Origin: a virus
Virus record (IMG/VR): IMGVR_UViG_3300019377_000003
Location: 1 to 32,185 of that record
Length of the DNA: 32,185 bases
Strand: one strand, 5' to 3'
Shown here piece by piece: positions 26,812 to 32,185 of this stretch (positions are counted from its first letter, which is position 1; each line of letters begins with the position of its first letter). Under the pieces are notes generated by a model. It was not told the DNA's origin and ran no database searches. It worked only from the letters and a program-made list of their open reading frames with translations. The position numbers and the translations under genes are program-made.

Positions 26812-27654
26812 TCAGATCGCTTTGCGGTCTGCCATCTTGACCAAGCGCATGCGGTGACTCGTCTCGGCTGGGATCACGACGCCGGGTCGCGGCCTGAGTT
26901 TATTGCACTTGAAGGGGCGGTAATCGACGACGTGCTGCCAGCGGTTCCACCGGCGCGCGATCGTGGTCACATCGGGATGCTGACGCTGTAGCGACTGCGC
27001 CATCTCGAGTCGCCCGTCACCCTGATACAGCACGTCGGTGTTTCCGCCCTTCATCTTCATCGTCGCAATCTTCTGGCACAGAAACGCCATGAACAGGATG
27101 GTGCACCAGCCGTCCTTGAGCACGCGCAGAGACAGATCGGTGTCCTCGTTGTAGCGACCGCGCCAGCGGTGCGGCAGATCGTTCTTGATCAGGATGCACG
27201 AGTAGATCCGGGTGTTGAAGCGCATCGCGGGCCACGTGGTGCGCGTTGTCGGCGTGAACATGACGTACTCGAAGCCCGCGAGCGCGACGTTCTCGTACCG
27301 GTCGACGAAGCCCTCTGCGGCTTTGAAGATCGTGCCGTCGCAGACGGGGTGACGCCGACCGCGATGCAGTCGCCGAAACTCGCGGATGTTGTCGTCGAGT
27401 ATCCAGTGCCGCGCTGCGCCGGTGCTCACTGCGTGCTCCCACACCCAGTTGCGTGCGGGGATGCTCCCCTGGCCGAGGTTCGAAAACGGCAGCACGAGCA
27501 GCTTCGCCGGATCGATCACCGCCGCGTACTGCTCGTGCTCCTGCGGCTCGATCACGACGTGATGCGGCACGCCCATGCGCGTGAGGGCTTTCGTTGTGAG
27601 GCGGCTCTCCCAGCGCCCTTTCGAGATCACATAGATCGGGTAGTCAGGATTCAT
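26812..27654 (-). CDS. Putative GREB1/TET-associated-type glycosyltransferase
   Basis: 280 residues. The sequence opens YPIYVISKGRWESRL, followed by the highly conserved-looking PFSNLGQGSIPARNWVWEHA and RHWILDDNIREF (D87-D88 as the DxD-like sugar-nucleotide site), then RYNEDTDLSLRVLKDGW (167-183), which fits the acidic motif of a GT-A glycosyltransferase. I recognise this arrangement as the phage family linked to TET/JBP oxygenases, proposed to glycosylate oxidised pyrimidines in DNA. Its start overlaps the ParB-domain gene by 11 bases. No TET, methylase or kinase lies in the window, so the substrate is unproven. Other glycan targets remain possible. Confidence 0.6.
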   Translation of the reverse strand: MNPDYPIYVISKGRWESRLTTKALTRMGVPHHVVIEPQEHEQYAAVIDPAKLLVLPFSNLGQGSIPARNWVWEHAVSTGAARHWILDDNIREFRRLHRGRRHPVCDGTIFKAAEGFVDRYENVALAGFEYVMFTPTTRTTWPAMRFNTRIYSCILIKNDLPHRWRGRYNEDTDLSLRVLKDGWCTILFMAFLCQKIATMKMKGGNTDVLYQGDGRLEMAQSLQRQHPDVTTIARRWNRWQHVVDYRPFKCNKLRPRPGVVIPAETSHRMRLVKMADRKAI

Positions 27655-28402
27655 CGTCGTCGTCCTCGCTCCACTGCTCGGCGCTCTCAGCGAAGCGCTC
27701 GTGCGGCGGGAACCAGATCGAGACGGTCTCCTTCGTCACGGGCTGCTGAACTAGCGCTGCGAACTGCGCCATGCCCTCGTCGGTGTCGAAGCGCACCACG
27801 ACCTGGCCGCATGACTTCGGGCTGCCGTCGAACTCGGGCATGCCTGTCCACTCGGTAGCGGCGACGTCCGGGATGTTGAGATCGGGCATGCCCCAGTCGT
27901 TCAGCTCGGCGGGGTTGAACTCCTGAAGCAGCATCTCGAGGTCGAACTCACCCGCAGCACCTTTGTGCAGATAGATCGTGAGCTTCTCGCGCTCCTTCTC
28001 CGAGAGCTCGCGCGAGCAGACGCGCGCCTCCACCGCGTAGTCGAGGCCGTGCTTCTCAGCGAGCACCTTCAGCCGCTGGTGGCCGTTGTACACCTCGCGG
28101 TTCGGGCCGATCGCGAGCACCTCCACCTGACCGAACTCCTCGAAGGAGTCGAGCAGGCGCGCTGACTGCTGCGCGTTGATCTTGCGCGGGTTACGAGACC
28201 ACGGCAGCAGGTCTCGCAGCTGTACCGTTTGCGTCGCCCACGACGGCGCGCCTGTCGCCTCCGCCGCGGGCTGGGCGGGCACAGCAGCTATCGGCGGCAC
28301 AGCCTCCACCACCGGCGAGCGCTGTCGTGCGGGTGCGCGCTGCGCGACGGGCGGCGCTTTCTTCTGAGCCTTTTTCTTCGCTACCGCTGCTTTGCCAGCC
28401 AT
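27644..28402 (-). CDS. ParB/Srx-domain protein
   Basis: 252 residues. The N-terminal 50 residues are basic then Ala/Pro-rich and probably disordered. The ParB-like fold runs about 58-130: VQLRDLLPWSRNPRKI, LLDSFEEFGQ, and EVYNGHQRLKVLAEKHG with the NGHQR (106-110) nucleotide-binding box. An acidic C-terminal end (EQWSEDDDDES) follows a WFPPHERFAE segment. Such single-domain ParB proteins in phages accompany DNA methylases and base-modification enzymes, where they may act as nucleases or CTP/ATP-dependent clamps; they are not partition proteins. An AAGGA box precedes the ATG. It is the first gene of the leftward pair. Confidence 0.75.
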   Translation of the reverse strand: MAGKAAVAKKKAQKKAPPVAQRAPARQRSPVVEAVPPIAAVPAQPAAEATGAPSWATQTVQLRDLLPWSRNPRKINAQQSARLLDSFEEFGQVEVLAIGPNREVYNGHQRLKVLAEKHGLDYAVEARVCSRELSEKEREKLTIYLHKGAAGEFDLEMLLQEFNPAELNDWGMPDLNIPDVAATEWTGMPEFDGSPKSCGQVVVRFDTDEGMAQFAALVQQPVTKETVSIWFPPHERFAESAEQWSEDDDDES

Positions 28403-28530: not shown

Positions 28531-28806
28531 ATGAGCAACACGGTGGACGAAGAGAGTGGAATGCGACCCAAACAGTGCGACATCTGCGAGTGCAGCCTCC
28601 TCGGGCGGGCTTACGTGGACGGGGTCACCCTGCTGGGCCCCTGGGCGAACATGTGCCTCGAGTGCCATCGCACCTGCGGATGCGGGCTTGGCACGGGCTT
28701 CGGTCAGCGGTACGAACCCGCGCTCGAGTTTGCCCCTGCCGCCCGGCGAGCGAAGCAGATCGCCCAGAAGGGCCGCCGCGTCTCAAAGAAGCGCGCCTCG
28801 CCCTGA
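28531..28806 (+). CDS. Small zinc-binding-type phage protein
   Basis: 91 residues. Cys pairs CDICECSLLGRAYVDG and MCLECHRTCGCGLGTGFGQR suggest one or two zinc sites, with a basic C-terminus (QIAQKGRRVSKKRASP). I have seen this type (CDIC...GPWANMC...GCGLGTGFGQRYE) as an uncharacterised small phage protein. The ATG at 28531 has no Shine-Dalgarno box; an in-frame ATG at 28561 (residue 11) has a weak purine stretch before it and may be the actual start. A hairpin terminator candidate lies 18 bases downstream. Confidence 0.65.
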   Translation: MSNTVDEESGMRPKQCDICECSLLGRAYVDGVTLLGPWANMCLECHRTCGCGLGTGFGQRYEPALEFAPAARRAKQIAQKGRRVSKKRASP

Positions 28807-28877: not shown

Positions 28878-29120
28878 ATGCCACGCCCCGCCTACCGCTG
28901 TGACGACTGCTTCGAGACCGCAGCACGCTGCGCGGTGTGCCGTGAGCGGCGCGCGGACGCTGTGCGCGTCGCGCGAGCTCGCAAGCGGGCCGCTGGCCTC
29001 TGCATCGAGTGCGGCGCTCCAGCGCTCGCAGGCATGTCACGCTGCGAGGCACACCGCGTCGCGAACAACACACGCTCCGCCGACGCACACCGCGAGGCGC
29101 GCCGCACGCGGGCTAGCTAA
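28878..29120 (+). CDS. Small Cys-rich zinc-finger-like protein
   Basis: 80 residues. The first Cys cluster is YRCDDCFETAARCAVCRE, the second GLCIECGAPALAGMSRCEAH with spacing typical of a small zinc finger; the rest is Arg/Ala-rich and probably binds nucleic acid. GAGAGAGGT precedes the ATG with an eight-base gap. The longer in-frame extension upstream overlaps the previous gene and is rejected. Small zinc fingers ending in RC-x-x-H are common in actinobacterial and myxobacterial phages. Role unknown. Confidence 0.65.
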   Translation: MPRPAYRCDDCFETAARCAVCRERRADAVRVARARKRAAGLCIECGAPALAGMSRCEAHRVANNTRSADAHREARRTRAS

Positions 29121-29151
29121 AGATCGCACCTGGATCGGCCGTATTAGAAGC

Positions 29152-29817
29152 ATGAGCAAGCTGTTTTCGAATTCCACGCCCGCCACGGTAACGAACGTCG
29201 CCCCTGGGCTCCTGATGTTGTGCCTACTCGCGCTCGCCGGCTGCGCTGCAGACGCCACGGGCGACGAGCTCGACCCGGGCGATGAGACGCAGCTGCTCGA
29301 GGACGCGGGCGCTGGCGACTCTGCAGTGAGCTTTGCCGACGCCGACCCGCCGCCGCTGTACGAGCAGGCCGCTGGCCGCGCTGCGCCCGTACCGGTTCCC
29401 GTGCCCGTCGTGGATGCCGGCTCGACGCCGCTCGTCGACGCCGATGGTGGTGCTGCGGGTGCGCCTGCGGTCGAAGCCGACGCGGGGACTGGTTCTGCTG
29501 GTTCTGGCGCCGCTGGCAGTGCGGGGACCACCGCGGGCACGGCTGGCGGCGCGGGTGCCTCGGGTAGCGCGGCCGGCGCCGGTGGTGCGCTCCCGGTCGA
29601 GCCTCCGCCGAGCTCGCCCACCAGCTGTCGGTTCCCGGTGTCCGAAGTCATCCTGACGTGTGCGAATCAGCAGGTGTACGGCTGGCTACTCCGCTGGTCG
29701 GTGAGCGAGTCGACAACGGTGACCTGCCTCGACACCGGGTACCCACAGTGCGTGCGCGGCGCCCGTTGCACCGCGATGAAGTCGAACGGCACGGTCGAAG
29801 TCGGCGCCTGTCAGTGA
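29152..29817 (+). CDS. Ala/Gly-rich lipoprotein, host-like cargo
   Basis: 221 residues. A lipoprotein signal ends LLMLCLLALAGC (lipobox LAGC, C31). The mature chain is acidic, then a Pro/Val stretch (PVPVPVPVVDAG), then a low-complexity Ala/Gly/Ser/Thr linker of about 40 residues, then a small C-terminal domain of about 65 residues with six Cys (SCRFPVSEVILTCANQQVYG; TVTCLDTGYPQCVRGARC) that may form three disulfides. This plan is frequent among myxobacterial lipoproteins. It would be displayed outside and may be a lysogenic conversion gene. The ATG has a TATTAG box four to nine bases upstream, and only a weak Shine-Dalgarno. A frame extending upstream overlaps the previous gene and is rejected. 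Confidence 0.65.
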   Translation: MSKLFSNSTPATVTNVAPGLLMLCLLALAGCAADATGDELDPGDETQLLEDAGAGDSAVSFADADPPPLYEQAAGRAAPVPVPVPVVDAGSTPLVDADGGAAGAPAVEADAGTGSAGSGAAGSAGTTAGTAGGAGASGSAAGAGGALPVEPPPSSPTSCRFPVSEVILTCANQQVYGWLLRWSVSESTTVTCLDTGYPQCVRGARCTAMKSNGTVEVGACQ

Positions 29818-30498: not shown

Positions 30499-30683
30499 CG
30501 TTTCACCACCGTGTGGCCATTGCGTCGGGCCCAATCGCCGGCAGGCCACATCACCTCAGCAAACGTTTTTTCGCTCGGCACCGGCTTGGTGCTGTACAGA
30601 CACTCGCCCTTCGCGGTCACCACGTGCGCGACCAGGGTGTCATTTGCGCGGTCGATCTCGACCGTGATCCGCACGACCGTCAT
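30495..30683 (-). CDS. 62-residue hypothetical protein
   Basis: A small globular protein with strands and one helix: MTVVRITVEIDRANDTLVAH, ECLYSTKPVPSEKTFAEVMW, PAGDWARRNGHTVVKR. The start overlaps the recombinase stop (ATGA at 30680-30683) and its stop overlaps the 211-residue gene, so the three form one leftward operon. No family recognised. Because it is coupled to a recombinase, an excisionase-like role is possible, but no HTH is visible and this is speculative. Confidence 0.55.
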   Translation of the reverse strand: MTVVRITVEIDRANDTLVAHVVTAKGECLYSTKPVPSEKTFAEVMWPAGDWARRNGHTVVKR

Positions 30684-32185
30684 GGCTCGTTGTCGCTCGG
30701 TAGCTTCACAAGCGAGGGCCGCGAGCGCTGCACGATGCCTTCGCGTTGGAGCTCGCTCATCACTGCCGCGGTGACCGACTTCGCGATCGCGGGCGTCATG
30801 GCTCGGACGAGCTCGGCGAGCACCCGGCCCGGCAGCTCGACCCGTAGCTCGTGCTCCAATCTGCGGACGTGATCCTGGAGCTCGGCGACCTGGGCTTCTG
30901 CCCGCGATTTGCCATTCGCACCCGGCAGCACGGGGCTGGAGCTGATCGCGTCACTGGTATTTGTTGAGTTTTTAGGCATATCGGCTACTTGTGAGTGTAG
31001 CACAAAATCTTGCGAGAACTTTGGTTTTGCCAATGATTGCGCATGCTTAGCGATCAGCGTGGCAGGACCGTGGCAACTGGTCAGCTCTCCGCCGGTTGGG
31101 GAGGCGGGCCCCGTCACGGTTGCACGCAGCTCGGGGATGGCTTGATCGAGCGGCACGAAGTCACGGTTGAGTAGGTCGAGCTGCTCGTACGTGTCTGCTG
31201 CGCGCTGGTACGTCTTCAGCATGCGCGAGTCGACGTGCGCGGTGTGCTCCTGCACCTTCGAGGGCGTCCAGCCGATGGCAAGCTTGATGGTGATGAACGC
31301 CCCGCGGTAGTCGTACGCGACCACGTGGCGGCGCTGAGCGGTCGCCTCGAGGAGCTCCGGCCGGCGCTCGAGCACACCCGCGAGTCCGAGGTGTTCGCGG
31401 AACCGCTCGGCGAGATCCTCGAGCGGGATCGGGCCGCCGTCGTCGTCGATGAACAGTAGGTCACTTCGCTTCGCGTTCGGCCGGTAGCGGGCCAGGTACG
31501 CGCGCACCGCTTCGCGCGTCCCCGGCGTCATCGCGAACATGATGCGTGCGTCGGTCTTGGTGTCGTCGCAGCGCACCGCGTTCTTGTCCAGGTTCACGTG
31601 CTCGATGCGCAGCGCTACGACGTTGTGCGGGCGCATCCCTTCGTGACCGAAGAACCCCCAGAACACCCGCCAGTGAACGGACACCGCGTCGCAGGCGAGC
31701 AGCTCCGCATCATCGTCGGGGTAGATCATCGCCTTGGCTTTCCTCGCCGCGGGCGCAGGCACCCAGCCCGTCGGCAGCGGTGACTTCTCGATGTACTTGC
31801 ACGGGTAGACGGCGATGTTCATCAGCGCGCGGAAGCGTGCGAGCACATTGCGAGCTGAGTCGTGCTCGAGGCCGGACGCAGACAGGTTCTTTTTTACGCG
31901 GTCGGCGACCTCGAGCGCAACCTGGTCGAGCGGCACCTCCCCGATCAACGGGTACACCCACTTGCTCAGGAGATCGTCGGTGTGCTGCGCGGTGCGGTCG
32001 CTCATGATGCGCCTGACGAAATCAACCCTGTGCAGCTTGTACAGCGTGCCGTTGGTCCACTGCGTGCCGAGCTGTCTCACAGTCAGAGCGGTCGACGGCG
32101 GGCGCCAGCCGCCAATCAGCTTGTCGACGAACGCGCACGCGACGTTGAGCGTCTGCTCTCCGTGTGCCGCAGCAACCGCACTCAG
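30680..32185 (-). CDS. Tyrosine recombinase/integrase, 5' end outside the window
   Basis: The frame is open to the right edge (501 residues visible), so the start lies beyond 32185; a GTG at 32080 is only an internal codon, and the residues before it (PSTALTVRQLGTQW) belong to the N-terminal arm or core-binding domain. Numbering from that GTG, catalytic positions are R150 (GHEGMRPHNVVALR), K175 (DTKTD), R259 (AYDYRGAFIT), H282 (EHTAHVDSRM) and nucleophile Y291 (LKTYQRAAD). The usual H in HxxR is Tyr256. About 165 residues after the catalytic domain contain a Ser/Thr/Pro-rich linker and a coiled coil (AEAQVAELQDHVRRLEHELR), unusual for integrases. It likely mediates prophage integration. Confidence 0.82.
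   Translation of the reverse strand: MSAVAAAHGEQTLNVACAFVDKLIGGWRPPSTALTVRQLGTQWTNGTLYKLHRVDFVRRIMSDRTAQHTDDLLSKWVYPLIGEVPLDQVALEVADRVKKNLSASGLEHDSARNVLARFRALMNIAVYPCKYIEKSPLPTGWVPAPAARKAKAMIYPDDDAELLACDAVSVHWRVFWGFFGHEGMRPHNVVALRIEHVNLDKNAVRCDDTKTDARIMFAMTPGTREAVRAYLARYRPNAKRSDLLFIDDDGGPIPLEDLAERFREHLGLAGVLERRPELLEATAQRRHVVAYDYRGAFITIKLAIGWTPSKVQEHTAHVDSRMLKTYQRAADTYEQLDLLNRDFVPLDQAIPELRATVTGPASPTGGELTSCHGPATLIAKHAQSLAKPKFSQDFVLHSQVADMPKNSTNTSDAISSSPVLPGANGKSRAEAQVAELQDHVRRLEHELRVELPGRVLAELVRAMTPAIAKSVTAAVMSELQREGIVQRSRPSLVKLPSDNEP

Follow-up and report, generated by a model that had tools for sequence, protein, structure and literature searches.

In the late region of a temperate myo-type phage, two overlapping genes encode a glycosyltransferase of the TET-associated type (TAGT) and a protein with a ParB domain, and this raises the question of what the enzyme decorates with sugar: phage DNA, either as an unmodified base or through a handle installed by another enzyme, or a protein. 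The window, by which we mean the whole stretch of DNA that was analyzed, is a 32,185-bp linear IMG/VR record that holds the late half of the phage and no early region. The presence of an integrase indicates that the phage is temperate, and since the integrase frame is still open at the end of the record, the record is incomplete; checks of the window for tRNAs and end repeats found none. Its main genes are as follows:

Plus strand: terminase, portal, protease, capsid, sheath, tape measure, and baseplate (late genes)
26812..27654, minus strand: TAGT-family GT-A glycosyltransferase, 280 aa (PF20691; AlphaFold2 model; invariant columns)
27644..28402, minus strand: partner gene, 252 aa, with a ParB domain and a second domain, here called N-dom (PHROGs, profile, fold)
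30680..32185, minus strand: tyrosine integrase (PF00589, E 1.2e-11), whose open frame runs past the record end

An amidase endolysin is also encoded, and the TAGT/ParB pair is flanked by the endolysin and integrase genes. Both open reading frames of the pair are real and lie where the preliminary description of this DNA had placed them (26812-27654 and 27644-28402). Upstream of the ParB gene, and divergent from it, the adjoining plus-strand gene at 28531-28806 encodes a small Cys-rich protein that matches PHROG 29767 and 23287 (function unknown). Between ParB and the integrase, a further plus-strand gene (28900-29817) encodes an Ala/Gly/Pro-rich low-complexity protein with a lipoprotein-like signal, which is possibly a lysogenic-conversion gene.

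The glycosyltransferase

As had been proposed from the letters alone, the 280-residue protein is a phage TAGT-type glycosyltransferase, matching Pfam PF20691 with 164.4 bits (gathering cut-off 27.5; E 4.2e-48) and PHROG 842, "beta-glucosyl-HMC-alpha-glucosyltransferase," with an E value of 4.1e-43. Its reading frame is intact and under purifying selection, with a dN/dS of ~0.22 (0.175/0.780) against the TAGT of a sibling phage, L004; in the TAGT pair of loci L100 and L102, the ratio is 0.03. Across 65 aligned TAGTs, 26 columns are invariant, and these include Gly203-Gly204 (65/65) and two further motifs:

27388..27396, minus strand: Asp87-Asp88-Asn89, invariant in 65/65 aligned TAGTs
27142..27150, minus strand: Asn169-Glu170-Asp171 in RYNEDTDLSLR, invariant in 65/65 aligned TAGTs

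The first of these we take to be the DxD-type metal/nucleotide-sugar motif of GT-A enzymes, and the second is likely a catalytic or acceptor-side motif, judging from its conservation. The AlphaFold2 model (pLDDT 93.2, pTM 0.91) has a GT-A fold, and its best fold matches in the PDB were collagen galactosyltransferase (COLGALT1), GalNAc-T2 (Z 14.7), and cellulose and hyaluronan synthases, with the best GT-A chain giving an rmsd of 4.3 over 222 residues. A structural match to a protein glycosyltransferase had been put forward in the preliminary description as evidence against DNA modification, and such folds are indeed among the best matches; however, at ~10% identity and TM 0.4-0.5 they are generic GT-A neighbors that do not settle the acceptor. 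Searching solved structures with the TAGT and N-dom profiles returned nothing meaningful, and no TAGT was found in the plasmids searched.

The partner gene and its two domains

The partner gene, together with its junction to the TAGT gene, can be divided as follows:

27887..28231, minus strand: ParB/Spo0J-like N-terminal domain, ~residues 58-172 (PHROG 620 over residues 58-168; PDB ParB by profile and fold)
27677..27859, minus strand: N-dom, ~60 residues (~182-242; W-x-GMPEF...SIWFP), matched in the window ORF by its own HMM at 65.5 bits
27644..27654, minus strand: stop/start overlap of 11 bp (ATGAATCCTGA), read from the sequence, with the stop of the ParB gene over the start of the TAGT gene

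The 252-aa protein itself has no Pfam match. It matches PHROG 498, a ParB-bearing methyltransferase family (1.6e-15), and PHROG 620 (3.6e-12), while the profile of its family matches Spo0J/Noc/ParB in the PDB (1.6e-13) and the fold predicted for it agrees with that of ParB N-domains. The earlier reading of the pair, in which the glycosyltransferase gene overlaps that of a single-domain ParB protein, is therefore correct as to the 11-bp overlap and, by profile and predicted structure, as to the ParB fold, but not as to the single domain, because a second conserved domain occupies ~residues 182-242. The window ParB has NGHQR where GERR, presumably the canonical CTP-binding motif of ParB at this position, would be expected, and this loss makes CTP-clamp behavior doubtful. 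No relatives of the window ParB protein were found in the named phages that were searched for them.

The overlap between the two genes would couple the translation of the partner gene and the TAGT. Of the 106 relatives in which the upstream gene is separate, 56 have an identical 11-bp overlap, and the commonest overlap junction reads (G)ATGAATCCTRA.

N-dom as the near-constant partner of TAGT

N-dom sits at the C-end of the window ParB gene, and its motif across relatives is W-x-GMPEF...IWYP. Neither Pfam nor NCBIfam has a model for it, and PHROG 22103 matches it weakly. The N-dom HMM matches 133 of 142 TAGT sources (141 loci plus the window), which is an in-sample count, as the HMM took its seed from 8 of these sources and was then refined iteratively on them. 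Among 150 TAGT ORFs, N-dom is fused to the enzyme in 27, encoded in the upstream gene in 106, found elsewhere in the locus in 6, and missing from 11, several of which lie on contigs cut at the TAGT gene. In the separate N-dom/TAGT pairs, the TAGT ORF starts within 162 bp of the upstream N-dom gene in 101 of 106 cases and is 578-1644 bp away from it in the other five. When the search was reversed and started from N-dom, a TAGT was present in all 78 new loci examined (78/78, from the best 80 of 538 viral candidates), a result that is partly independent of the first, since a by-eye comparison of the lists places 14 of the 78 loci on contigs already in the TAGT set.

The near-constant partner of TAGT is therefore N-dom and not ParB, which is optional. 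Sorted by a motif rule, the N-dom carriers comprise 47 that are ParB-like, 9 with a different long N-end, and 83 with neither feature. A quick tree of 133 TAGTs shows at least 9 switches between the fused and the separate state and at least 10 between presence and absence of ParB, and well-supported branches make no fewer than 3 of the latter necessary. N-dom has a confidently modeled core in the window protein (pLDDT ~95), with a single helix and no sheet of its own, and it is predicted to dock on the TAGT.

Genomic surroundings and sugar donor

The closest view of the surroundings comes from L004, a syntenic record of 44,277 bp, in which 23 of the 41 ORFs of the window have a match at 26-75% identity; the most conserved of these is the TAGT (75%). 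L004 holds an integrase and replication genes (DUF927, RecD2 helicase, PD-(D/E)XK) of a kind not in the window. In both phages, the pair follows the tail genes and is not next to the terminase. Its orientation relative to the late genes is opposite in the window and the same in L004, suggesting that the pair has moved or been inverted as a unit.

Among the wider set of relatives, a terminase large subunit gene lies ≤4 kb downstream of the TAGT in 42 of the 103 loci whose sequence is long enough, genes for packaging or replication are neighbors in 74 of 141 loci, and a ParB fusion occurs in L018. In L006 (9701-13345, plus strand), one 1,214-aa ORF combines N-dom, TAGT, and a family A DNA polymerase. 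Genes of the sugar-nucleotide epimerase/UDP-glucuronate decarboxylase type follow closely after the TAGT in three loci (L030:4511-5500, L051:1865-2818, and L070:4404-5405), overlapping it in two, and the L051 copy matches a PDB UDP-glucuronate decarboxylase at E 3e-100. The presence of such decarboxylase-like genes near the TAGT makes it likely that these enzymes use a UDP-sugar, and by extension the window phage would do so as well; in the phages of L030, L051, and L070, the donor is possibly UDP-xylose.

Phage DNA or protein as the substrate

We consider that N-dom and TAGT probably glycosylate phage DNA, with the choice of DNA deduced from context. The two genes would then form a glycosylation module in this temperate phage of myo type, in which the TAGT would act as a metal-dependent GT-A enzyme that takes its sugar from a UDP-sugar. 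N-dom would be an obligate subunit, co-produced through the stop/start overlap, fused in many relatives, and presumably in complex with the enzyme, while the ParB domain, as an optional addition, would hold the enzyme on phage DNA or position it there. Glycosylation would follow replication and take place before or during packaging, on an unmodified base or on a handle from an enzyme not recognized here, and the sugar on the DNA may protect it against restriction or other defense. A role in DNA modification had already been suggested in the preliminary description and is plausible, as T2/T6 members of the family glucosylate DNA-borne sugar (PMC13216743 and PMC13390438).

The points counted in favor of DNA are (i) the ParB partners and fusions, (ii) the fusion of TAGT to DNA polymerase A, (iii) the terminase and replication neighbors, and (iv) the relative in T6 that acts on DNA. 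Counted against it are the failure of our searches to find a handle for an O-linked sugar, the protein O-glycosyltransferases among the closest solved folds, the loss of GERR, the placement of the pair at the tail end in both the window and L004, and GREB1, which we take to hold a TAGT-type domain of the same family as the window enzyme. GREB1, unlike the window TAGT, is eukaryotic and is reported to be a protein O-GlcNAc transferase (PMC12645433). With the exception of GERR, these same points speak for the main alternative, namely that N-dom/TAGT adds sugar to a virion or host protein such as a tail fiber, the capsid, the terminase, or a defense protein. We regard this alternative as rather unlikely, because the structural matches are to generic GT-A folds, because the association with ParB, the polymerase fusion, and the frequent replication and packaging neighbors all lie on the DNA side, and because the characterized phage member, that of T6, works on DNA.

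Search for enzymes that would supply a DNA handle

According to the preliminary description, pairs of this kind usually occur together with a TET/JBP oxygenase and a DNA methylase; with none visible in the window, these could lie outside it, or the enzyme could act on another base or on a glycan. In such a classical pathway, a C5-methylase and a TET/JBP encoded beyond the window would produce 5hmC, which the TAGT would then glycosylate. The window, being a linear record of 32 kb that lacks an early region, leaves room for this, and the family name ties TAGT to TET. Iyer's 2013 survey reportedly links the two and is said to describe TET/JBP-TAGT-methylase operons with a TAGT plus ParB. The window has TAGT and ParB in common with those operons; however, here there is no TET/JBP and, in the relatives, mostly no C5-methylase.

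A search of the window found no TET/JBP in this incomplete record, in agreement with what had been seen by eye. The wider search that had been recommended, for an oxygenase, a cytosine methylase, or a thymidylate-synthase-like hydroxymethylase, was run on relatives and proved negative or nearly so: among 50 TAGT-bearing viral records, out of those of 83 viral loci, TET/JBP was over the cut-off in none (0/50), a C5-methylase was present in 4 (4/50), and the thymidylate-synthase family (PF00303) was over the cut-off in none (0/50), although T6 gp42 was detected as a positive control in the same kind of search. No TET/JBP was found in six named phages (0/6), in a search in which the positive controls were silent. 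Of 48 TAGT-holding host genomes (48 of 52 genome loci were searched), one had a TET/JBP gene (1/48), and this match implies that the host-genome search is able to detect one. This sole gene is on contig C25 (L144) of a Winogradskyella MAG (G080), a different contig from that of the TAGT locus. Even L004, which carries early genes and is syntenic with the window, has no match to TET, thymidylate synthase, or C5-methylase, and it is therefore unlikely that a TET pathway lies just outside the window. It does not appear that pairs of this TAGT lineage normally keep company with these enzymes, and the classical pathway, for all that the family name and the Winogradskyella genome offer, is improbable here.

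Four of the six named phages do match the thymidylate-synthase family. In Aeh1, henriette, and Kuja, these are full-length PF00303-type matches annotated as thymidylate synthase, with one further short match in Aeh1 that is below the cut-off, and in PTm1, the main match lies within an ORF annotated as an HNH endonuclease, a second being weaker. The alpha-glucosyltransferase family (PF11440) was found in none of 30 N-dom TAGT records (0/30), with T6 positive. No hydroxylase was seen among the top 25 of 42 Pfam families matched by 74 ORFs (30 from the window and 44 from the sibling), a scan that left out 5 of the 49 ORFs selected from the sibling, among them the one with the TAGT, as well as window ORFs scanned earlier, and in which the ORF picked over the sibling ParB was on the wrong strand. 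Likewise, no hydroxylase was among the top 25 of 99 Pfam families for 112 ORFs of three further viral records, where 22 of 134 picked ORFs were omitted; 4 of 7 viral contigs were scanned in this way.

TET/JBP, thymidylate synthase, C5-methylase, and alpha-glucosyltransferase were thus set aside as explanations of the acceptor, the searches for them being negative or rarely positive. The lack of a TET, a base hydroxymethylase, or a first-sugar transferase (from the alpha-glucosyltransferase search) alongside the pair leaves as the acceptor either a base without modification or a handle from an enzyme not recognized here. More speculatively, and with considerable doubt, N-dom/TAGT could be a self-contained system of hundreds of phages and prophages in many phyla, which would place a sugar, perhaps xylose in some, directly onto an unmodified base or onto the handle of an unknown enzyme, without TET, hydroxymethylase, or first-sugar transferase, with N-dom as a so far unnamed obligate subunit and ParB as an interchangeable DNA-targeting module.

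Relation to known systems

The beta-alpha-glucosyltransferase (ggt) of T6 scores 35.8 bits against PF20691 (cut-off 27.5) and adds glucose to DNA-borne glucose (PMC13216743). Like the window TAGT, the T2/T6 enzymes are phage-encoded members of PF20691, described as GT-A type in the same report (PMC13216743), and a by-eye reading of the alignment gives them ExxxY, acidic DD, and GG motifs in common with the window protein. In contrast to the window, they are barely similar in sequence, have no N-dom or ParB, adjoin a dCMP hydroxymethylase, and act on the product of an alpha-glucosyltransferase. That the window TAGT, as a member of the Pfam family of T6 ggt, which makes gentiobiosyl-hmC, would likewise extend a sugar placed on hydroxymethylcytosine by an alpha- or beta-glucosyltransferase is very improbable, given the absence of alpha-glucosyltransferase and gene 42-like matches in the records searched, the lack of N-dom in T6 ggt, and the omission of both Aeh1 and 65 from the gene 42, alpha-gt, and beta-gt lists in Petrov 2010.

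Closer to the window are the TAGTs of Aeromonas phages Aeh1 and 65 and of Vibrio phages, which belong to the same lineage and are 41-47% identical to the window protein in 22 of 24 phage records. Unlike in the window, N-dom is fused at the N-end of the TAGT in Aeh1, 1.124.O, 1.076.O, PTm1, and Kuja, and ParB is absent. In PMC8056088, ORF087c of Aeh1, which may be the Aeh1 TAGT, is listed as a glucosyl transferase with "unknown base." The ParB-methyltransferase and CmoX/ParBc phage systems (PMC12783734) resemble the present one in that a DNA-modifying enzyme has a ParB-like domain fused to it or encoded next to it, whereas the window enzyme is a glycosyltransferase and its constant partner is N-dom.

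Solitary TAGTs without an alpha- or beta-glucosyltransferase are already in print as potentially novel transferases, in 288 of 753 genomes, according to a 2026 survey of phage glucosyltransferases (PMC13216743). No description of N-dom or of the coupling to ParB was found in the literature consulted, although the Iyer 2013 survey could mention them. The orphan TAGT group gains an anatomy, consisting of the N-dom partner, the optional ParB module, and a conserved, presumably translational coupling, and the question of its substrate becomes testable on named phages and lysogens. The name "TET-associated" itself is poor ground for predicting 5hmC.

Other genes near TAGT

A class I SAM methyltransferase family recurs near the TAGT at L005:4364-5176, L020:8772-9686, L057:5387-6406, and L067:8162-8974, and in L005 its gene lies between two TAGT genes. 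A second, diverged TAGT-like gene (L105:7746-9476) is located ahead of the fused N-dom-TAGT gene of that locus, and a related gene precedes the fused gene in its cluster mates L099, L108, L131, and L138.
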